35,223 bases of DNA from Spirochaetia bacterium (lineage in GTDB: Bacteria > Spirochaetota > Spirochaetia > CADAEX01): assembly GCA_017535435.1 (NCBI GenBank), contig JAFXTY010000051.1, positions 1 to 35,223 on the forward strand, read 5' to 3'. Numbering within the stretch: the first letter of the stretch is position 1; each line of letters begins with the position of its first letter. Made by a program: the position numbers and the translations under genes. Of this stretch, positions 2,515-20,015 are shown one piece after another. Below the pieces are notes generated by a model. The model worked only from the letters and a program-made list of their open reading frames with translations, was not told the origin of the DNA and searched no databases.

Positions 2515-3723
2515 ATGGAATTAACAATTATTGATGACAAGGAAAAAAGAGGTCCGGTAGAAAGCGCGGTAATCAAGGTTATCGGCGTCGGCGGCGCAGG
2601 CTGCAATGCAGTGAACCGCATTATCGAAGACTATAACCGGCAGGATGTCATATTCATCGCTGCCAACACCGACCTGCAGGCTCTCAAGCGGAGCCAGGCC
2701 GAGACTCACCTGCCCCTGGGCCGGGAGACCACCCATGGTCTGGGTGCCGGCGGCAATCCAAAGGTAGGCGAGGATGCTGCCAACGAGCAGAAGGAAGATA
2801 TCAAGCAGTTCATAGAAGGATCCGACATGGTGTTCATCACTGCCGGAATGGGCGGTGGAACCGGAACCGGAGGTGCTCCTGTAATTGCCAAGATTGCCAA
2901 GGACATGGGCAAGCTTACAATCGCTGTGGTGACCACTCCCTTCGACGGCGAGGGACCCCGGCGTATGGAGAATGCCCTTATGGGAATCGAGAAGCTTAAG
3001 GAGAACGTGGATGCCCTTATTGTGGTTCCGAACCAGAAGCTTCTGGAGTTCGCCCATGTTGAGAAGACAGTCTCCATGCTGGAGGGCTTCAGGATTGCCG
3101 ACGGCGTGCTGCGGGATGCGATCCTGGGCATTGCAAACCTTATAACAATACCTGGGGAGATAAACCTTGACTTTGCCGACATAAACACAATCATGAGGGG
3201 CAAGGGCGAGGCCTTCATAGGAATAGGCGAGGGCAAGGGAGAGACCATGGCAGAGGATGCCATAACCAATGCCCTGTGCAACAAGATCCAGGATAACACC
3301 GATATCACCGGTGCCACAGGCATCATCATAAATATAACCAGCGGCCCTGACTTCTCCATGACAGACCTGGAGAAGATACTTACCCTTGTCCGATCCAATG
3401 CGGATGAGAATGTAAACCTTATCTACGGCCAGCGGGTTGATGAGTCCATGAAGGAGAGAGTCTCTGTGACCATAATCGCCACAGGTTTCCCGTCGAACCA
3501 GAAAACCATGGGAACCCAGTACTCAAAGCCTAAGGTGAATAATCCGAATGTGGTGAGTCCGAGAGAATGGGATGCCATGCAGAAAGGTGGGATGAGCGGA
3601 AATGCAGCTCCAAGACCGGAAACCAGGGTGCAGAGCGAAGGCAATGGAGACTGGGGCAATATTGAGCAGCCGGCAATCTACCGGCTCCGGGGCAGGGTGC
3701 CTGGAATAAGGACAGAAAAGTGA
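2515..3723 (+). CDS. ftsZ: FtsZ, tubulin-like division GTPase
   Basis: This protein of 402 residues forms the cytokinetic Z ring. It has the N-terminal nucleotide loop (VIGVGGAGCNAVNR, about 22-35), the tubulin signature GGGTGTG (about 113-119) and the T7 synergy loop NLDFADINTIM that completes the active site of the next subunit. A glycine- and asparagine-rich linker follows, then a recognisable C-terminal peptide (NIEQPAIYRLRGR) for FtsA binding. A strong purine-rich site (GGGGGAGGGGAG) precedes the ATG at 2515. The C-terminal peptide is followed by about ten extra residues. The stop overlaps the next gene. Confidence 0.98.
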   Translation: MELTIIDDKEKRGPVESAVIKVIGVGGAGCNAVNRIIEDYNRQDVIFIAANTDLQALKRSQAETHLPLGRETTHGLGAGGNPKVGEDAANEQKEDIKQFIEGSDMVFITAGMGGGTGTGGAPVIAKIAKDMGKLTIAVVTTPFDGEGPRRMENALMGIEKLKENVDALIVVPNQKLLEFAHVEKTVSMLEGFRIADGVLRDAILGIANLITIPGEINLDFADINTIMRGKGEAFIGIGEGKGETMAEDAITNALCNKIQDNTDITGATGIIINITSGPDFSMTDLEKILTLVRSNADENVNLIYGQRVDESMKERVSVTIIATGFPSNQKTMGTQYSKPKVNNPNVVSPREWDAMQKGGMSGNAAPRPETRVQSEGNGDWGNIEQPAIYRLRGRVPGIRTEK

Positions 3724-4610
3724 TGGATTTAAAGCGGCTTTCCGACAGCTATGTAGACTATATTATCAGTGAACTCAACCTTTCCCAGGCCACAGTTCTG
3801 ATTTACGGCAGAGAGATAAGCATGTTCATCTCCTACCTGGGGGACCAGAAGATTGCTCCATCTTCGATATCCACATCTGACATAGAGGATTACATCGCAA
3901 GCCGTACCAGGGAAGGGCATCTCACATCCCGTACAGTATCCCGCATAATGAGCAGCCTCCGTTCCTTCTTCAAGTTCCTTCAGCTGGAGGATGTGCGGAA
4001 GGACAATCCGGTTGCAGTGCTGGATATGCCCAAAAGCAGCCATGTGCTGCCCAAGGTTTTCAGCAATGCCGAGGTGGATTCCTTCTTCGACAGCATTGCC
4101 CTGGGCAAGCCTGCGGGAATAAGGGACAGAGCCCTGTTCGAGGTCATCTATTCCTGCGGACTGCGTATCTCCGAGGTATCGGATCTCAAGTGCTCCGACA
4201 TCTACCCCGAGGAGGGTGTGGTACGGGTGTTCGGAAAGGGAAGCAAGGAGCGCATAGTTCCTCTGGGAGAGGTCTCACTCTACTGGATAAAGAAATATAT
4301 GGAGGAGGGAAGGAAGAGCCTTCTTAAGGAAAAGCAGTCAGAATATCTGTTCATCAATTGTTTCGGCCACAAGATAGGCCGCAAGGGAATCTGGAAGAAG
4401 TTCAAGGAGATATCCAAGAATGCAGATATCGAGGGAAAGGTGCACACACTGCGCCACTCCTTTGCAACCCATATGCTCAGGAACGGGGCAGACCTCCGTT
4501 CTGTCCAGGAGATGCTGGGGCATGCCGATATTTCCACAACCCAGATTTATACCCACCTGGACCGCAGCGACCTGCGGCGGATTTATGACAGGAGTCATCC
4601 GGCAGTCTGA
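3720..4610 (+). CDS. XerC/XerD-family tyrosine recombinase (first copy)
   Basis: A 296-residue site-specific recombinase with an N-terminal SAM-like core-binding domain (about 8-92) and a C-terminal catalytic domain. The catalytic set is complete: R149 (CGLRISE), K173 (FGKGSK), H242 and R245 (HTLRHSFATH), H268 (LGHADIS) and nucleophile Y277 (TQIYTHL). Such enzymes resolve chromosome dimers at dif. The start may be GTG 3720 or ATG 3723, both overlapping the ftsZ stop; AAGGA at 3708-3712 suits either. A second family member lies at 7712. Which is XerC and which XerD cannot be settled by eye; an FtsZ-adjacent position is consistent with coupling to division. Confidence 0.93.
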   Translation: MMDLKRLSDSYVDYIISELNLSQATVLIYGREISMFISYLGDQKIAPSSISTSDIEDYIASRTREGHLTSRTVSRIMSSLRSFFKFLQLEDVRKDNPVAVLDMPKSSHVLPKVFSNAEVDSFFDSIALGKPAGIRDRALFEVIYSCGLRISEVSDLKCSDIYPEEGVVRVFGKGSKERIVPLGEVSLYWIKKYMEEGRKSLLKEKQSEYLFINCFGHKIGRKGIWKKFKEISKNADIEGKVHTLRHSFATHMLRNGADLRSVQEMLGHADISTTQIYTHLDRSDLRRIYDRSHPAV

Positions 4611-7711: not shown

Positions 7712-8632
7712 TTGGAAAAGTATATCTCCTACCTTGAGAACATCCGGCATCTCTCTCCTGCTACTGTGAAGGCCTATAAAGGCGACATAGCGGAGTTCAT
7801 TTCCTTCATGGAGGAGTCGGGCTGTTCTGTGGGAAGCCCTGACAGAAACAGCGGCAGGAGATATGTGGCCCATCTTTCCAAGAAAGGGTTTGATGCAAGG
7901 AGCATAAACCGGAAGATTTCGGCCCTACGCAAATTCTATGACTATAAGATAAGGGAGAAGGAGACAGACTTCAATCCATTCGATTTTGTGAAATCCCAGC
8001 GGGTGGACAGGAAGCTCCCTCTCTATATGACAACTGGCGAGCTTGAGCAGGTTGACAATATGGCCAAGGAGAAGGAGTCTTCCAATCCTATGCTTGGAGC
8101 CAGGGACGAGGCTCTGTTCAGCTTCCTGTATGCATCGGGATGCCGTATTTCCGAGGCTCTCTCCATAAAGGTGAGAGACCTGGATTTCACTTCGGGCCAG
8201 GTGCTCATAACTGGAAAAGGAAACAAGCAGCGGTTTGTGTTCTTCGGAAAACCTGTTGCGGAAATCCTTCAGGCATATCTGCCGTTACGGCAGCAGGTGG
8301 TGACAAAGGAGGGGACAGATACAGAGTCCCTTTTCATAGACTACAAGGGAAATGCCCTTACAGCCCGGGGAGCCACCTGGATTTTAAAACAGTACAAGAT
8401 GAATGCACATATCGACAAGAATGTGACATTGCATACATTCAGGCACACCTTTGCCACCCATGTTTTGGAGGGGGGTGCCGACATCCGGGCCGTGCAGGAG
8501 CTTTTAGGCCATGCAGGGCTTTCCACGACCCAGATCTACACCCATGTGGGAATAGGGCGTCTCAAGGATATCCACAGGACAACCCATCCTCATGGAAGGC
8601 TGGAGCAGAAAGGAGCAGAGAATGGAGTTTAG
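7712..8632 (+). CDS. XerC/XerD-family tyrosine recombinase (second copy)
   Basis: A 306-residue tyrosine recombinase with a SAM-like domain (about 1-87) and complete catalytic residues: R145 (SGCRISEAL), K169 (TGKGNK), H241 and R244 ([10 protein letters not shown]), H267 (LGHAGLS) and Y276 (TQIYTHV). The likely start is TTG at 7712, directly after the topA stop, with AAGGAAG upstream; no ATG fits the N-terminal helix. It overlaps hslV by 11 bases. A topA-xer-hslVU order resembles the codV-clpQ-clpY cluster of Bacillus and supports a XerC-type role. Together with the copy at 3720 it could form the XerCD heterotetramer acting at dif. Confidence 0.93.
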
Positions 8633-9155
8633 AGGGACAACTATCCTTGCAGTGAAAAAAGACGGCAAGGTTGCAATGGCCGGCGACGGCCAGGTTACAC
8701 TGGATAAGACTGTAATGAAGGGACACGCACGGAAGGTGCGGAAAATATATGACGGCAAGATCCTGGTGGGCTTTGCAGGTGCCACCGCCGATGCCTTCAC
8801 ACTGTTTGAGAAGTTCGAGGGCAAGCTTAAGGAGTTCGGCGGAGACATGACCCGGGCCGCAGTGGAGCTGGCCAAGGAATGGAGAACCGACAGGGCGCTG
8901 CGCCGTCTGGAAGCTATGCTTCTGGCTGCCGATGCGACCAAGATTCTCCTTATCTCCGGCACAGGGGACGTGGTGGAGCCCGACGAGGAAGCCCTTGCCA
9001 TCGGAAGCGGCGGCAACTACGCCTATGCGGCAGCCCTGGCCTTCATGCGGTCCGCCTCCGGCATGACCGCGGCCCAGATCGCAGAGGAATCGCTTAAGAT
9101 TGCATCCCAGATCTGCATCTACACCAACAGCAATATTATTGTGGAGGAACTCTGA
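8622..9155 (+). CDS. hslV: HslV (ClpQ) peptidase subunit
   Basis: HslV is the proteasome-like threonine peptidase of the HslUV protease. The protein (177 residues) starts MEFRG followed by TTILAV. The five-residue leader should be removed so that T6 becomes the N-terminal nucleophile. [21 protein letters not shown], read in two parts, holds the conserved GDGQ turn and the active-site lysine region. The ATG at 8622, with AAAGGAG seven bases upstream, is chosen over an upstream in-frame ATG at 8592 because the longer form would bury the threonine. Its stop overlaps the hslU ATG by one base. Confidence 0.97.
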
Positions 9156-10513
9156 TGCTTGATTTCGATAAACTTACTCCGAAGCAGATTGTGGAAGAGC
9201 TGGATAAGTATATAATCGGCCAGGACAAGGCCAAGCGGACTGTGGCCATGGCACTGCGGAACCGGGTGCGGCGGAAGATGCTGCCTGAGTCCCTGCGTGA
9301 AGAGGTCATTCCTAAGAACATAATCATGATCGGTTCCACCGGGGTGGGAAAAACAGAAATCGCCCGCCGCCTCTCCAAGCTTTCAGGTGCCCCATTTGTA
9401 AAGGTTGAGGCGACAAAATATACCGAGGTAGGCTATGTGGGCAGGGATGTGGAATCCATTATCCGGGACCTTATGTCTGTGGCTGTGAACATGGTTAAGA
9501 CCGAGATGCGGAGCACTGTCATGGAGGATGCGAAGGTAAGAGTCGAGGAACAGCTTCTCGACCTGCTGCTGCCCCACACAGTTCATCAGAACCAGCCTAA
9601 GCAGGAAGGGGAAGATGTGAAGCTGCTTCCGCCGGAGGAGCCCATAAGGGAAAAGTTCAGGAACAAGCTTAGAAACGGGGAGCTTGAGGAGCACCAGGTG
9701 GAGATAGATGTGACCAGGCCGGGCTTCCAGCCTATGGAGATTTTCGCAGGCACAGGCCTTGAGGATATGGGCATCAACTTCGGCAGCATAACCGGTGTCA
9801 TGGGTGGCAAGAAGAAAAAACGCCGCACCACTGTAAAGCATGCCCGGGAGATTCTCCTTGAGGAAGAGATCGACAAGCTTATCGACAGCGACAAGGTGGC
9901 AGAGATTGCAAAGACACGGACCCAGGAGATGGGCATAGTTTTCATAGACGAGATCGACAAGGTGGCAGGAAGGCAGAACACCAGCGGCGCAGATGTGTCC
10001 CGGGAGGGTGTTCAGCGGGATATCCTGCCTATAGTGGAAGGGTGCAAGGTGAACACCAAATATGGAATGGTGGACACAACCCATATCCTGTTCATAGCGG
10101 CAGGGGCATTCCATATGAGCAAGCCTTCGGACCTTATCCCTGAGCTCCAGGGACGGTTCCCGCTGAGGGTGGAGCTTGAGCCGCTTCAGGCCGCAGAGTT
10201 CGAGAAGATTCTGACCCAGCCTCAGAACGCCCTTATCAAGCAGTATAAGGCCCTTATGGAGACAGAGGATGTGAAGCTTGAGTTCACAGATGATGCTGTT
10301 AAGAGGATTGCATATATAGCCCAGGAGCTTAATGCAGGAAGCGAGAACATCGGGGCAAGACGGCTGCATACAATCATGGAGCTGCTTCTGGAGGAGGTCT
10401 CCTTTGCGGCACCGGAACTGAAAGGGCAGACAATAACAGTTACGCCCCAATATGTGGACGAAAGGCTCCACGGCGTATTAGGGGATCAGGATCTGGCAAG
10501 ATATATCTTGTAG
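9155..10513 (+). CDS. hslU: HslU (ClpY) AAA+ unfoldase
   Basis: HslU unfolds substrates and threads them into HslV. Within 452 residues are the Walker A motif GSTGVGKT (about 60-67), the GYVGRDVE pore-loop region (about 91-98), the inserted I domain (about 110-240), Walker B IVFIDEID (about 260-268) and the C-terminal tail ending LARYIL, which docks into HslV. GGAGG stands eight bases before the ATG, inside hslV. In motile spirochaetes, as I remember them, flgB follows hslVU; here fliF starts only 33 bases after the hslU stop. Confidence 0.98.
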   Translation: MLDFDKLTPKQIVEELDKYIIGQDKAKRTVAMALRNRVRRKMLPESLREEVIPKNIIMIGSTGVGKTEIARRLSKLSGAPFVKVEATKYTEVGYVGRDVESIIRDLMSVAVNMVKTEMRSTVMEDAKVRVEEQLLDLLLPHTVHQNQPKQEGEDVKLLPPEEPIREKFRNKLRNGELEEHQVEIDVTRPGFQPMEIFAGTGLEDMGINFGSITGVMGGKKKKRRTTVKHAREILLEEEIDKLIDSDKVAEIAKTRTQEMGIVFIDEIDKVAGRQNTSGADVSREGVQRDILPIVEGCKVNTKYGMVDTTHILFIAAGAFHMSKPSDLIPELQGRFPLRVELEPLQAAEFEKILTQPQNALIKQYKALMETEDVKLEFTDDAVKRIAYIAQELNAGSENIGARRLHTIMELLLEEVSFAAPELKGQTITVTPQYVDERLHGVLGDQDLARYIL

Positions 10514-10545
10514 AGATATAAGTTCTTTTAAATCAGGGAGGGGTT

Positions 10546-11490
10546 ATGAAAGGACAGATAAAGGAGTTTTTAAGCAGCATAGGACAATTCTGGAAAAAGC
10601 TAAGGCAGGCGCAGAAGGTCTCAATTATTCTAATATTGGCAATTGCCTTTGCCCTTATTGTCTTTGTCAGCTCGGCTGGCTCCACATCTTTCATGACTCC
10701 GCTGTTCACAGCGCGGATATCAGACACAGCACTGCTCAACACCATATCACTCCGGCTGGATCAGGAGGGAGTTTCCCACAAAATTTCCGACGGCATGATC
10801 TATCTCCAGGGGAAGGGCGATGCCCAGAGGATGATTGCTCTTCTTATGCGTGAGGACCTGGTTCCGAAGAATGCTTCCCCCTGGGATGTGTTCAAGATGG
10901 ACCGGTGGACCACCACCGACTTTGAGCGGAACGTGAACCTGCGGCGGGCAATCAGTGTAAGCCTTGAGCAGCATATCGAATCCCTGGCAGATGTGGACAG
11001 GGCCAGGATCACTCTTGTCATGCCCGAGAAATCCCTTTTCACCGAGGATCAGAAAGAGGTGTCTGCCTCCATCATCATCACACCTCATCCAGGTTCTGAC
11101 ATTGTATCAAATCCGAAGAAAATCCAGGGAATCATAAAGCTGGTGAAGTTCGCAGTGGAAGGACTTGAGGACAAGAACATCACAATCAGCGACACAGCTG
11201 GAAACGTGCTCTCCGACTTCGCAGGAATGGCATCCTCCCCAGTCACTCCCGCGGTTAAGCCTATGACACAGGCTCCGGCTCAGCAGGATATTTTCGACAG
11301 GCTTCCTGTAAGCCGCAACATAGCATACGCAGCTGCAGTCTCCCTGGCAGTGCTGCTTTTCGCAGTTGTATGCATCCTGATTTTTGGAAAGAAGAAGAAA
11401 GAGGCTATACTTGAGGATGCCCGGAACATGGCATCCCAGAACCCGGAAGAGGTTGCCCGCCTTGTGAAGACCTGGTTGTCGGAGGACTGA
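10546..11490 (+). CDS. fliF: Shortened FliF: MS-ring protein lacking the RBM3/beta-collar domain
   Basis: FliF normally forms the flagellar MS ring and has about 550 residues; this one has 314. In order I see a cytoplasmic N-terminus, TM1 (about 25-43), RBM1 (about 52-105), RBM2 (about 118-222, with DRARITLVMPEKSLF and GIIKLVKFAVEGL), a proline-rich linker (about 229-247), TM2 (about 259-281) and the FliG-binding tail (NPEEVARLVKTWLSED). The roughly 200 residues that should lie between RBM2 and TM2, meaning RBM3 and the beta-collar, are absent. The join is in frame, with no stop or repeat scar. The two-RBM form recalls the injectisome inner-ring protein SctJ, but without a lipobox. GGGAGGGG precedes the ATG. 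Family identity is secure; function is uncertain. Confidence 0.9.
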   Translation: MKGQIKEFLSSIGQFWKKLRQAQKVSIILILAIAFALIVFVSSAGSTSFMTPLFTARISDTALLNTISLRLDQEGVSHKISDGMIYLQGKGDAQRMIALLMREDLVPKNASPWDVFKMDRWTTTDFERNVNLRRAISVSLEQHIESLADVDRARITLVMPEKSLFTEDQKEVSASIIITPHPGSDIVSNPKKIQGIIKLVKFAVEGLEDKNITISDTAGNVLSDFAGMASSPVTPAVKPMTQAPAQQDIFDRLPVSRNIAYAAAVSLAVLLFAVVCILIFGKKKKEAILEDARNMASQNPEEVARLVKTWLSED

Positions 11491-11491
11491 T

Positions 11492-12472
11492 ATGGCTCGA
11501 CTGAAGAAAGCTGCAGTTATAAAAAAGCTTTCAGGTAAAGAAAAAGCCGCAATTTTCCTCATGGCCCTCGGGTGCGACAGCTCGGCTATTGTGTTCAATC
11601 ACCTTAATTCCCAGGATGTGGAGATACTCTCTTACCAGATAGCCTCCACAGAGAAGGTGGATTCGAATACTCTCTCCCAGGTGCTCTATGAGTTCAGGGA
11701 ACTGGCCACAGCCCGCAACTATATTGCCACCGGCGGCGTGGAGTATGCCAAGAAGCTGCTCTCCAAGGCCTTCGGCGAGAAAAGGGCCGATGAGATCATC
11801 CAGAAGATATCCATATTCCTCCATAAGAAGCCCTTTGAGTTTGTCAAGCGTGTCCAGAGTGACCGTCTTGTATCCTTCCTCAAATTTGAGCAGCCCCAGA
11901 CTATTGCCCTGGTTCTTGCATATCTTGAGCCCGGGACAGCATCCCGCATCCTTTCGGCCCTGCCCAGGAGCATACAGTCGGATGTGGCACGGCGAATTGC
12001 AGTCATGGACCGGACATCTCCCGAGATGCTGCATAATGTGGAGAAGGTGCTGGAGAAGAAGCTGGCCCTCTTTGACCTGTCAGGCTACAAGGAGGCTGGC
12101 GGCATAGAGAGCATGATGAATATCCTCAACCGGATGGACAAGAAGACCGGAGCAGACATCCTCTCCGAAATCCGCCGGAGCAATACAAAGCTTTCAGAGG
12201 AGCTCACCTCCCAGCTTCTTGTGTTTGATGATGTAGTCAAGATAGATGATGAGGTCCTGTGCGCTGTCCTTGCAGGTGTCTCATCGGATGACATAGCAAA
12301 AGCATTGAGGACAGCAAGCTTCGAGGCCCGGGAAAAAATATTGGCAAACCTTTCTCCGGAACTCTCCAAGCTCCTTTCCCAGCCCGATTCCAAGCCCATC
12401 AGGCTTAAGGAGATAGAGGAATCCCAGAGCCAGATACTGGCTGCCATAAGAAAAGCAGGAGGCCCTAAATGA
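11492..12472 (+). CDS. fliG: FliG-like protein with degenerate torque helix
   Basis: FliG is the C-ring protein that joins FliF to FliM and turns stator force into rotation. The 326 residues cover the N-terminal FliF-binding, middle and C-terminal armadillo-like domains, including AGGIESMMNILNRMD (hinge) and LLVFDDVVKIDD. Against remembered E. coli FliG, the torque-helix residues R281, D288 and D289 align with E290, Q297 and P298, with a two-residue deletion after them; K264 and R297 are kept as R273 and R304. The FliM-binding EHPQ is EQPQ (133-136). The start follows the fliF stop by one base, with GGAGGA upstream. It likely binds this FliF but is poorly suited to drive a motor. Confidence 0.93.
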   Translation: MARLKKAAVIKKLSGKEKAAIFLMALGCDSSAIVFNHLNSQDVEILSYQIASTEKVDSNTLSQVLYEFRELATARNYIATGGVEYAKKLLSKAFGEKRADEIIQKISIFLHKKPFEFVKRVQSDRLVSFLKFEQPQTIALVLAYLEPGTASRILSALPRSIQSDVARRIAVMDRTSPEMLHNVEKVLEKKLALFDLSGYKEAGGIESMMNILNRMDKKTGADILSEIRRSNTKLSEELTSQLLVFDDVVKIDDEVLCAVLAGVSSDDIAKALRTASFEAREKILANLSPELSKLLSQPDSKPIRLKEIEESQSQILAAIRKAGGPK

Positions 12473-13128
12473 CAGATGTATTCAAAGCCATAGATGTGGA
12501 AGAGCTGGAAAAAGCTTCCCGCATAGATATCCAGGCAGAGAGCCGCAACCTTATGGCACAGCTGGAGAAGGCCAGCACCGATGCCGCAAAAATCCGCCAG
12601 GAGGCAAAGTCCGAGGCCGAGAAGATCAGAGCACAGGCCTATGAAGAGGCAAGGAAAGAGGGCTTTACAAAAGGGGAGAAGGAAGGCTTCGAGAAGGGGC
12701 TTGATCAGGTTGACAAGCTCATAAGCCAGCTGGAGATGATAACCCGTGATGTAGATGAATGCAGGCGCAATATACTTGAGAATGCCAAGCACGATATTGT
12801 GGACCTGGCGGTGGGGATAGCCGAGAAGGTGGTGAAGACCACATGCGCAAAGCAGCGTGACATTGCATTGCGGAATGCAGAGTATGCCCTGGGGCTTCTC
12901 AAGGAGAAGAGCCCCGTGGTGATCCGGGTGAACCTGGCTGATATGGATATAGCCCGGGAATACCGCTCCATGCTTCTTAATATGTTTGACAAGGTGGAAT
13001 CTATAAAGATTGCCGAGGATCCTGCCGTGGAGCAGGGTGGCTGTATCGTGGAGAGCGACACCTGCGGTGTGGACGCCAATATCCCGACCCAGCTTTCCTC
13101 TATCAGGAGCAGCCTGCATGAAGAGTGA
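12469..13128 (+). CDS. fliH: Short FliH-like ATPase regulator/stator
   Basis: FliH dimers hold the FliI ATPase at the export gate and C ring. This copy has 219 residues: a long charged coiled coil (about 20-95, with EGFTKGEKEGFEKGLDQ, the FliH glycine-repeat region) and a C-terminal FliI-binding domain ending with EQGGCIVES, as in FliH and SctL proteins. Spirochaetal FliH proteins are, from memory, nearer 300 residues, so the N-terminus appears cut back. The protein contains no tryptophan, whereas the N-terminal tryptophans of Salmonella FliH contact FliN and FlhA. Its ATG overlaps the fliG stop (ATGA). Confidence 0.85.
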   Translation: MTDVFKAIDVEELEKASRIDIQAESRNLMAQLEKASTDAAKIRQEAKSEAEKIRAQAYEEARKEGFTKGEKEGFEKGLDQVDKLISQLEMITRDVDECRRNILENAKHDIVDLAVGIAEKVVKTTCAKQRDIALRNAEYALGLLKEKSPVVIRVNLADMDIAREYRSMLLNMFDKVESIKIAEDPAVEQGGCIVESDTCGVDANIPTQLSSIRSSLHEE

Positions 13129-14434
13129 CCTTGAGCGTTTTAAAAAGATAATAGAGAGTGCCCAGCCCTGCCGCTACACAGGCATGGTGACCAAGGTAAC
13201 AGGCTTTATGATCGAGAGCGTGGGACCCCAGGCCATGGTAGGGGAGCTGTGCCAGATATTTCTGCCCAAGAAAGAGGAGCCGGTGCAGGCCGAGGTTGTT
13301 GCCATAGACGGCTCCAAAGTACGGCTTATAACCTATGGCAGCGCTGTGGGAATCCAGATGGGGTGCCAGGTGGTGGCCACAGGACGGAGCCTGGGAATAC
13401 CTATGACCAATTCCCTTCTGGGGCGTGTCATAGACAGCATGGGGAATCCATTGGACGGCAAGGGGCCTATAGGCTTCGGAAAGAAGCGTTCCGTATTCGG
13501 TATACCTCCTGATATTTTGAACAGACAGATGGTGCAGGAGCCGGTGGAGACCGGAGTCCGCTCCATAGACTCACTTCTGACTGTTGGCCTTGGTCAGCGG
13601 CTTGGGATTTTCTCTCCCGCAGGAACAGGAAAGACCACACTGTTGGGTATGATTGCACGGAACACCCAGGCAGATATAAATGTAATTGCGCTGGTAGGCG
13701 AGCGGGGCCGGGAAGTGGGCGAGTTCATAAGAAATGATTTAGGCGAGGAGAAACTTGCAAAATCTGTAGTTGTTGTCTCAACCTCTGACATATCCCCTGT
13801 ATGCCGTGTTCGGGGTGCATATACTGCGGTGACAGTTGCAGAGCATTTCCGGGACCAGGGGAAGAATGTCATGCTTTTCTTCGACTCCCTTTCCCGTTTT
13901 GCCAGGGCCCAGAGCGAGATCGGTCTCTCCATAGGCGAGGTTCCTGCCACAAGGGGATATCCGCCATCGGTGTTCACCGAGATGCCTAAGCTCCTTGAGC
14001 GGTGCGCCAATTCACAGAAGGGAACCCTTACAGGCTTCTTCACCGTGCTGGTGGAGGGGGATGACAGGGATGAGCCTATATCGGACAGTGCCGAGGGCTT
14101 CCTGGACGGTCATATCATTCTTTCCCGCAAGCTTTCGGAGGCAGGACATTATCCGGCAGTGGATGTGCTCCAGTCTGTATCCAGAAGCGCTGTGCGTGTT
14201 GCTCCGGCCCCTCTTCTGAAAGCTGCCGAGGTTATACGGAACCAGATGGCTGTATACCGGGATGCAGAGGACCTTATAAATGTGGGTGCCTACAACAGGG
14301 GAACCAACAGGGCTATAGACACAGCGATAGACAAGCACGATGCCATAGACCAGTTCCTTATCCAGGATCTGAAGGAGAAGGCCACCTTCCAGGAGAGCAT
14401 GGATAAGGCCATGTCGATAGCAGGGGTACGATGA
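13118..14434 (+). CDS. fliI: FliI, flagellar-type export ATPase
   Basis: FliI is the F1-beta-like hexameric ATPase of the flagellar export apparatus. The 438-residue protein has an N-terminal beta-barrel (about 18-95), Walker A SPAGTGKT (about 166-173), the catalytic loop GERGREVGEF and Walker B region VMLFFDSLSRFA, then a helical C-terminal domain of normal length. I choose ATG 13118, which overlaps fliH by 11 bases and has AGGAG eight bases upstream; the frame is open further upstream only as fliH overlap. Unlike its neighbours this gene looks complete, so the ATPase activity is probably preserved. An injectisome SctN is an alternative, but the FliF/FliG context argues for a flagellar origin. 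Confidence 0.96.
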   Translation: MKSDLERFKKIIESAQPCRYTGMVTKVTGFMIESVGPQAMVGELCQIFLPKKEEPVQAEVVAIDGSKVRLITYGSAVGIQMGCQVVATGRSLGIPMTNSLLGRVIDSMGNPLDGKGPIGFGKKRSVFGIPPDILNRQMVQEPVETGVRSIDSLLTVGLGQRLGIFSPAGTGKTTLLGMIARNTQADINVIALVGERGREVGEFIRNDLGEEKLAKSVVVVSTSDISPVCRVRGAYTAVTVAEHFRDQGKNVMLFFDSLSRFARAQSEIGLSIGEVPATRGYPPSVFTEMPKLLERCANSQKGTLTGFFTVLVEGDDRDEPISDSAEGFLDGHIILSRKLSEAGHYPAVDVLQSVSRSAVRVAPAPLLKAAEVIRNQMAVYRDAEDLINVGAYNRGTNRAIDTAIDKHDAIDQFLIQDLKEKATFQESMDKAMSIAGVR

Positions 14435-14784
14435 GAAAAGAGTTCCGGCTGGAGAAACTCCTTGAGATCCGCATCATGGATGAGCGCTTCGCCGCCGCAA
14501 AGCTTTCTGATATCGATGCCAGGCTGAACCGTGTTCAGGACGAGCTTGACCAGATAAGGAAAAAACAGACACAGCTTTATGCCTCTTTTGTGGACTCTAT
14601 CCAGACCCCGGGAAGCCTGGCACCGTTGCAGGCACAGCTGACAGCACTCAAGGAAGAGGCCCTGGATCTTGAAAAAAATCTTGAAAATCTAAAAAAAGAG
14701 AAAGCGGAGGCCAATGCCGTCTATGCTGATGCTCTGAAAAAACGGAAAATTCTTGAGAATTTGAAAGAGAAAACCCTTATCTGA
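14431..14784 (+). CDS. fliJ: Short FliJ-like coiled-coil protein
   Basis: FliJ is the gamma-subunit-like coiled coil that inserts in the FliI ring and touches FlhA. This 117-residue protein is almost entirely alpha-helical with two heptad-rich stretches (about 5-60 and 66-115), starting FRLEKLLEIRIMDE and ending RKILENLKEKTLI. Typical FliJ proteins have about 140-150 residues, so the C-terminal 30 or so appear missing. The call rests on the fold pattern, the N-terminal FxLexLLeiR-type motif and the position directly after fliI (overlap ATGA). It is the last gene of the run; no hairpin terminator is visible after it. Confidence 0.82.
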   Translation: MRKEFRLEKLLEIRIMDERFAAAKLSDIDARLNRVQDELDQIRKKQTQLYASFVDSIQTPGSLAPLQAQLTALKEEALDLEKNLENLKKEKAEANAVYADALKKRKILENLKEKTLI

Positions 14785-19022: not shown

Positions 19023-19086
19023 AACATCAATCAAAATGAACTTTTTCGCAGTTATAGAAAGTAAACAGATTTGGAGGAGGAACTGT

Positions 19087-19353
19087 ATGTCTGAGATAAG
19101 CGAATTTTTAGGGATCACCATTTTTATGAATTTTGAAAGCCAGGATCAGCCTAATTTCCAAGCCCTGTATAACGGGCGGCATGGGCTTTTTTCCATTTCT
19201 AAACTGAACTATTCACAGGGCAATCTTCCGCCGAAAATTGTGGGGCTTGTCATTGACTGGGCGGCACTGCACAGGAAGGAGCTGATGGCCAGCTGGGAGT
19301 ACATAAGAGAAGCTGGAACGGGTCATAAGATATCGCCACTGGTCTCAGGTTAG
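19087..19353 (+). CDS. DUF4160 domain protein
   Basis: This small protein of 88 residues begins MSEISEFLGITIFMNFES and contains LPPKIVGLVIDWAALHRKELMASW, read as the conserved second half of the DUF4160 family. Function is not established; the family is often encoded beside a DUF2442 protein, and toxin-antitoxin behaviour has been proposed for such pairs. GGAGGAGG seven bases before ATG 19087 sets the start. An upstream in-frame ATG at 19036 lacks a site. It lies just before mazEF in a small island between housekeeping genes, which suggests acquisition as an accessory cassette. Confidence 0.8.
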   Translation: MSEISEFLGITIFMNFESQDQPNFQALYNGRHGLFSISKLNYSQGNLPPKIVGLVIDWAALHRKELMASWEYIREAGTGHKISPLVSG

Positions 19354-19371
19354 TTGAGATGGGAGGAAGTC

Positions 19372-19452
19372 ATGGAAGTATCTGTAGTAAATAAAAAGCT
19401 TGCAATCTTTACTGATTTTAATTATAATTACAATGTAATTACAGGAGGAAAG
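19372..19452 (+). other. Short in-frame ORF piece ahead of mazE, possible DUF2442 remnant
   Basis: A GGGAGGA site (19361-19367) and ATG (19372) open a frame of 27 codons, beginning MEVSVVNKKLAIFTDFNY, that runs in frame into mazE. The start resembles the opening strands of DUF2442 proteins, the usual partners of DUF4160, but the rest of that domain is missing. It may be a truncated DUF2442 gene joined to mazE, or a 5' extension of MazE. The mazE promoter lies inside it, so it is probably not part of normal MazE. The family resemblance is weak. Confidence 0.3.
19400..19441 (+). promoter_or_regulatory. mazEF promoter with overlapping 17-bp palindrome
   Basis: TTGCAA (19400-19405), a 17-base spacer and a perfect TATAAT (19423-19428) form a promoter with a start near 19435. 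The perfect inverted repeat TAATTAC-AAT-GTAATTA (19425-19441) covers the -10 end and the start site, and AGGAGG (19443-19448) follows at once. MazE-type antitoxins and MazEF complexes repress their own operons by binding palindromes at the promoter, so this is a strong operator candidate. Confidence 0.7.
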
Positions 19453-19698
19453 ATGCTGGTATCTGTCATTCGTATTGGAAATTCAAAGGGAATCCGTTTC
19501 CCCAAAGTTGTTCTGGAACGATTAGGCATAAAAGATAAAGTTGACATGGAGGTCACAGATAAGGGTATTCTTCTTTCTCCTGTGGCTGAAATCCCCCGGC
19601 AGGGCTGGGCAGAAGCTTTCTGCAGAATGCATGAGAGCAATGAGGACATATTGGAAGATGTTTCAACAGATGGGGAGGATTTCGAATGGGAATGGTGA
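19453..19698 (+). CDS. mazE: MazE-like antitoxin (SpoVT/AbrB fold)
   Basis: The 81-residue protein starts MLVSVIRIGNSKGIRFPKVV, the swapped-hairpin AbrB/MazE DNA-binding fold, and ends in an acidic tail (EDILEDVSTDGEDFEWEW) of the kind that occupies the MazF active site. ATG 19453 has AGGAGG five bases upstream and its own promoter. The frame is open further upstream to 19354, but the added residues do not belong to the domain. It overlaps mazF by 13 bases, the usual coupling of antitoxin and toxin. Confidence 0.9.
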   Translation: MLVSVIRIGNSKGIRFPKVVLERLGIKDKVDMEVTDKGILLSPVAEIPRQGWAEAFCRMHESNEDILEDVSTDGEDFEWEW

Positions 19699-20015
19699 TT
19701 CGGCAATATGAGGTTTACTTGATAAACCTGGATCCTGCAATAGGGCATGAGATACAGAAGACCCGGCCTTGCCTGGTTATCTCTCCGGATGAGATGAACA
19801 ATAATATCCGCACAGTAATCATTGCGCCTATGACTACTAAGTCCCATGCATATCCAACCCGCATTCCTGTCCGTTTCGATAAGAAGTCAGGCTGGATTGT
19901 AGTGGATCAGATACGGACTGTGGACAAGGCAAGGCTTGTGAAGAATCTTGGAAAAATTTCAAATAAAGAAATTGCAGCTGTTAAGGATATCCTCAGGCAG
20001 ATGCTGGTGGATTAA
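19686..20015 (+). CDS. mazF: MazF/PemK-type mRNA interferase toxin
   Basis: MazF cleaves single-stranded RNA at short sequences and halts translation when not held by MazE. The protein (109 residues) has the SH3-like barrel start QYEVYLINLDPAIGHEIQKTRP with conserved R27, and IIAPMTTK with the catalytic threonine region T50/T51. GGGGAGGA lies six bases before ATG 19686; a second ATG at 19692 is possible. All conserved residues are present, so it looks active. Its stop overlaps the convergent phosphoesterase gene by four bases. Confidence 0.94.
   Translation: MGMVIRQYEVYLINLDPAIGHEIQKTRPCLVISPDEMNNNIRTVIIAPMTTKSHAYPTRIPVRFDKKSGWIVVDQIRTVDKARLVKNLGKISNKEIAAVKDILRQMLVD

Follow-up and report, generated by a model that had tools for sequence, protein, structure and literature searches.

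A putative rod-less, flagellum-derived type III machine conserved in a genus of gut spirochaetes

The known non-flagellar type III secretion systems (NF-T3SSs) are inferred to derive from the flagellum and to have the secretin-less system of the Myxococcales (Myxo) as their earliest branch (Abby and Rocha, PMC3459982). The Myxo system has been proposed to serve in translocation or as a periplasmic structure (Abby and Rocha 2012, PMC3459982), and the question of partial flagellar motors has been raised more generally (PMC12199754). No published case in rumen spirochaetes was found in the open-access literature, nor does any paper retrieved report the combination of parts described here. The genes presented below appear to encode a rod-less, flagellum-derived type III machine that is conserved in a genus of gut spirochaetes. 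The window, by which we mean the whole 35,223-nucleotide stretch analysed, is contig C77 of a Spirochaetia metagenome-assembled genome (MAG) of 1.70 Mb that is 99% complete in 82 contigs, and it carries the following features.

8592 to 10513, plus strand: HslV and HslU, the ancestral neighbours of fliF
10546 to 11490, plus strand: FliF, 314 aa, made up of TM1, RBM1, RBM2, a short variable Pro-rich linker (aa 229-256), TM2 and the FliG-binding tail
11492 to 12472, plus strand: FliG, 326 aa, with conserved N and M domains, a changed torque helix and a shorter C-terminal end
12469 to 13128, plus strand: FliH, 219 aa (307 in the sister genus), with the N-terminal half shortened
13118 to 14434, plus strand: FliI export ATPase, 438 aa, with intact nucleotide-binding and catalytic motifs
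14431 to 14784, plus strand: FliJ, 117 aa, the central stalk or export chaperone

The original prediction held that the five flagellar genes are open, lie +1, -4, -11 and -4 bases apart from fliF to fliJ and have good ribosome-binding sites; all of this was reproduced, with a site before each of the five. Profile searches identify FliF (TIGR00206, 8.8e-57), FliG (TIGR00207, 6.6e-86), FliH (PF02108, 6.4e-20), FliI (TIGR01026, 4.4e-169) and FliJ (TIGR02473, 1.1e-11, slightly under the model cut-off). Genome-wide there is one YscJ/FliF protein, which is FliF itself, and one FliG_C protein. The gap between hslU and fliF is 32 bases in the window, and the sister genus has flgB, flgC and fliE in between. 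Elsewhere in the window, two XerC/XerD-like recombinase genes less than 5 kb apart (3720-4610, by Pfam match, and 7712-8632, similar by eye) sit within the ftsZ-topA-hslVU stretch, and a DUF4160 protein is followed by a MazE-like/PemK-like toxin-antitoxin pair (19036-20015).

The five genes had been read as a ring-ATPase system standing by itself, and this part of the prediction fell. The same genome encodes FliO, FliP, FliQ, FliR, FlhB, FlhA, a FliM-FliN fusion, FlhF and FliA, and a ring-ATPase without a gate is rejected by FlhA and this second operon. FlhA is encoded on contig C59, adjoining a protein with two SpoA domains. The order on C59 (L050, minus strand) is the end of ftsK, orf121 (a protein with FliG_M only), orf295, a FliK C-domain (118 aa), the FliM-FliN fusion (328 aa), FliO, FliP, FliQ, FliR, FlhB (248 aa), FlhA, FlhF and FliA. 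All five components of the type III gate, FliPQR with FlhB and FlhA, are present and conserved, and FliP prefers the flagellar model (276 vs 161 bits). The FliHIJ ATPase complex is complete in six species. A second full flagellar set in the genome, which the prediction had named as contrary evidence, was not found; the genes outside the window are the complementary half of the machine. Between them lies orf295 (L050:11400-12287, minus strand), a weakly sigma-70-like and faster-evolving protein (dN/dS 0.16) that is found in the six core species only and is perhaps a regulator.

The close relatives by FliF are Spirochaetia MAGs, mostly from the ruminant forestomach (buffalo, yak and goat), with an outlier, G001, from horse faeces. 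Our sample of the genus comprises seven species (G000-G006), all MAGs with completeness of 92-99%, and G007, which stands for the sister genus of this family, has the full flagellar gene set. The five-gene set, whose presence in relatives had also been put forward as a check, was found in six species, and both loci are kept in the same gene order in these six; in G006, fliI runs off the contig edge and its end lies on another contig.

The absence of the swimming parts rests on profile searches that found positive targets for rod/hook, flagellin, MotB, FliE and CheW in flagellated relatives. Within the genus, Flg_bb_rod (rod and hook), flagellin and MotB (MotB_plug) were each found in none of seven species, and FliE and CheW in none of the six searched. 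Flg_bb_rod and FliE are present in flagellated relatives, and G007, G011 and G014 have four flagellin copies each. That these parts are present and were overlooked is scarcely credible: the window's genome is in 82 contigs and every congener is a MAG, but rod, flagellin and MotB are missing from all seven genomes at 92-99% completeness and FliE from all six, the same searches succeed in flagellated relatives, and the sequence itself shows the truncation of FliF and FliG and the 32-base gap between hslU and fliF. The profile of the outer-membrane secretin (PF00263) gave matches in control genomes only and in none of the six genus members searched. SctD, SctI and SctF were not seen within the two clusters, and the searches returned no substrate, chaperone or outer-membrane exit for the machine.

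The proteins that remain are reduced in a patterned way. FliF has 314 residues vs 569-597 in flagellated relatives, and by alignment the difference is a single internal loss that removes RBM3 and the beta-collar together with most of the cytoplasmic linker and spares TM2 and the FliG-binding tail. Homology with flagellated spirochaetes covers residues 1 to about 228 and picks up again in the tail, and a 28-residue linker stands in place of RBM3 and the beta-collar. Invariance across six species is 96% in RBM2, 88% in the tail and 46% in the linker. In Foldseek comparisons, RBM1/RBM2 resemble the MS-ring FliF of Salmonella and, to a lesser degree, EscJ, PrgK and the ring of Shigella; the AlphaFold model behind this is of modest quality (pLDDT 63) and useful for RBM1/RBM2 and the helices only. 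The stator-facing torque helix of FliG has changed from NMSKRAAxLLKEEMEYM to NLSPELSKLLSQPDS--, a two-residue deletion, and invariance across the six species is 94% in FliG_M and 72% in FliG_C. The FliM-FliN fusion has lost the N-terminal LSQNEID (LSQxEID) motif, retains the GGDG motif and has a FliN-type SpoA domain fused on. FlhB ends directly after its linker helix (GDPVVKDLLRR) in six species, so that the NPTH domain, and with it the whole cytoplasmic domain, is missing. FliI retains PAGTGKTT, GERGREV and the FFDSLSRFARAQ block, and FlhA is full length. The VQKN that FlhA carries for PGKQ was considered as a sign of new function and rejected, as VQKQ is already present in flagellated G007.

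In the E. coli and Salmonella proteins, the altered motifs serve in torque, CheY binding and substrate switching. The losses fit the missing partners, RBM3 and the collar matching the absent rod, the FliG torque helix the absent stator and the FliM LSQxEID motif the absent CheY, and loss of the FlhB C-domain or NPTH fits a hook-to-filament switch that is gone. The retained parts (RBM2, the FliF tail, FliG_M, the FliM GGDG, the FliI motifs and FlhA) match the export core and C-ring. One correction applies to the claim that four of the five genes are shortened or altered where missing partners bind: FliI is unaltered, with its motifs intact. In both sublineages of the genus the FliK C-domain forms a small protein of its own (L050:10758-11114, minus strand; L055:13076-13399), and it persists although the ruler and hook are gone and its FlhB target is gone or altered.

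Both loci are under purifying selection. The five genes had been said to be free of stops and frameshifts, and none occurs in any of the six species, where the median Nei-Gojobori dN/dS of the five lies at 0.07-0.15. Seventeen flagellar-type genes in all are open in the six (dS about 0.5-1.0, dN/dS 0.06-0.18). FliP (0.058), FliI (0.068), FlhA (0.074), FliF (0.074), FliG (0.081), FliQ, FliA, FlhF, FliH and FliR fall at 0.058-0.091, and FliO, FliMN, FliJ, orf295, FlhB, orf121 and FliK_C at 0.146-0.182; neighbouring housekeeping genes give 0.036-0.068 (HslU 0.036, IlvB 0.049). Decay is rejected by these ratios and the conserved reading frames, and the original view of a maintained, rod-less set repurposed in a probably non-motile spirochaete holds. 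A functionless relic that decays slowly would agree with the shortened proteins, with the further reduction in G001 and with flagellar remnants known from elsewhere (PMC12199754), but we consider it very improbable given 17 open genes in six species at such dN/dS values. The class as a whole also speaks against a relic. FliF is missing in 10 of its 60 genomes, nine of them from four families and one a relative that is 58% complete, and FlhA is missing in both tested genomes without FliF. Judging from these families, outright flagellar loss is the usual end and the genus the exception.

The seventh species, G001, offers an intermediate. Its FliF (470 aa) keeps much of RBM3 (PF08345 match) and lacks the beta-collar insert, its FliG is shortened to 221 aa with all three domains present, and its FlhB reads TGKDG where NPTH is expected. 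G001 retains a FliK_C remnant, FliO, FliP, FliQ, FliR, FlhA, FlhF and FliA; neither FliI nor a SpoA protein was found in it. Broken genes in relatives, named in the prediction as contrary evidence, are therefore seen in part: G001 is without FliI and has a shrunken FliG, but it keeps FliF and the gate. In a tree of FliF (RBM1-RBM2; reduced set without G022, whose branch length of 10 probably reflects a wrong frame), the genus forms one clade (98/94) with G001 sister to the other six, and flagellated G007 comes next with weaker support. The tree indicates that FliF descends vertically, and acquisition of an injectisome by horizontal transfer is rejected by flagellar synteny, model scores and the same tree. 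On this tree, the ancestor of the genus was probably already without axial parts. Two sublineages probably shed different components later, with the gate, FliF, FliG, FlhF, FliA and FliK_C common to both.

At the head of the gate operon stands ftsK, and the FliG_M-only protein starts after a 1-base gap, as in G002 (L051:4805-7493; L057, L059, L061, L063). Five species have a sigma-28-type site, TAAA-N15/16-GCCGATA, directly ahead of ftsK and the gate operon; contig C59 of the window's genome ends inside ftsK, and in G001 no ftsK adjoins the gate. Genome-wide, the pattern occurs at 8 sites vs 1 for a reversed control pattern. Three further sites are conserved between species (L113, L114 and L115; orthologous L116-L122). 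They precede glmS, the gene of a Germane-domain protein and that of a 152-aa protein which has a Sec-type signal and is small and outer-membrane-like. The conserved sites make continued activity of FliA likely, with a partial tie to envelope genes, and suggest that FliA may now serve them.

Our preferred reading, held with moderate confidence, is that the window encodes half of a type III export machine that derives from the flagellum, has no rod and would open into the periplasm. Two-domain FliF would form an inner-membrane ring through RBM1/RBM2 that encircles the FliPQR-FlhB-FlhA gate, its tail would hold FliG, and FliG_M would hold the FliM-FliN fusion. The reduced C-ring, no longer rotating, may then serve as a loading platform for FliHIJ. 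Driven by ATP and the proton-motive force, proteins would dock, probably on FlhA, and pass through FliPQR to the periplasm, the site of native spirochaete flagella, with the gate operon under the control of the sigma-28 factor FliA. Several points weigh against this reading: the loss of the FlhB C-domain in six species, the failure to find a substrate, a chaperone, an outer-membrane exit or, in the six genus members searched, a secretin, the lack of FliI and SpoA in G001, and the fact that all the genomes are MAGs. In Salmonella, by the account in one report (PMC3640470), deleting a short loop of the FlhB C-domain abolishes secretion, and on that account export here would either be independent of the domain or not take place. 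The loss is thus an argument that any export would be unconventional, and with the NPTH domain missing we class the machine as a derivative that would work like the export apparatus rather than as one of its standard members.

The same core could build an inner-membrane structure in place of free secretion, either the base of a CORE-dependent nanotube or a "hat-like" fT3SS-related complex. A widespread hat-shaped inner-membrane structure is linked to fT3SS genes, and members of the family have been reported to take part in forming nanotubes (PMC9380563); the gate and FlhF are the part common to both sublineages, and loss of FlhB_C fits a role without substrate switching. However, the hat is known only in species with a complete fT3SS, and FliHIJ and the FliM-FliN C-ring, kept in six species, point to the loading of exported proteins, so that we judge this alternative unlikely. 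Quite unlikely, too, is a non-secreting scaffold in which FliF, FliG and the C-ring are placed by FlhF, with a role in polarity, division or signalling and a link to ftsK and sigma-28. The position of ftsK at the head of the gate operon and the sigma-28 sites before glmS, the Germane-domain gene and the small outer-membrane-like (envelope) gene would suit it, but the strongest constraint falls on gate and ATPase (FliP, FliQ, FliI and FlhA), which a scaffold does not need, and ftsK is not beside the gate in G001.

One of the closest known systems is the flagellar export apparatus of the sister genus G007, with which the putative export machine shares the ancestor-type operons hslVU-(flgBC fliE)-fliFGHIJ and fliM/N-fliOPQR-flhBAF-fliA and best matches to flagellar models. 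Unlike G007, the genus is without rod, hook, filament, stator and separate FliM and FliN, and FliF, FliG, FliH and FlhB are reduced. These losses bring it near the injectisome (SctJ, SctQ, SctN, SctRSTUV), which also has no rod, hook or filament: FliF is RBM1-RBM2 plus a TM, as in SctJ, and the FliM-FliN fusion has two SpoA domains, as in SctQ. The SctJ-type architecture (no RBM3) has been reached by truncation, however, as the sequence is that of FliF (TIGR00206 193 bits vs SctJ 38). The machine differs from injectisomes in its spirochaete flagellar descent, in keeping FliG, FliO, FlhF and FliA, in lacking the FlhB/SctU autocleavage domain and in having no secretin in six genus members. Judging by flagellar synteny, model scores and a FliF-only tree that sets it beside flagellated G007, it would fall outside the NF-T3SS clade. 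Like the Myxo system (PMC3459982), it is secretin-less, vertically inherited and conserved; unlike that system, which lies inside the single NF-T3SS clade, it appears to be a separate derivation with FliG. Whether a flagellum was here, in the Spirochaetota, converted independently and for a second time into a non-flagellar type III system, with convergence on SctJ-like and SctQ-like forms and no FlhB switching, is in our view evenly balanced. Its intermediates would be the sister genus with a full flagellum, G001 with a FliF without the beta-collar, and the six species with a FliF without RBM3. If true, the derivation would be separate and younger, and the steps of conversion could be read straight from living intermediates. 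Buchnera basal bodies have likewise lost flagellin and Mot and retained the export gate in a host-associated lineage (PMC8109811), but they keep the rod and a partial hook, whereas the genus has no rod and its FliF no rod-holding domain. Chlamydiae carry FliF, FliI and FlhA homologues in a lineage without flagella; by the account in PMC2830194, they have at least three such orthologues together with a true NF-T3SS, whereas the genus described here has a nearly complete export core.
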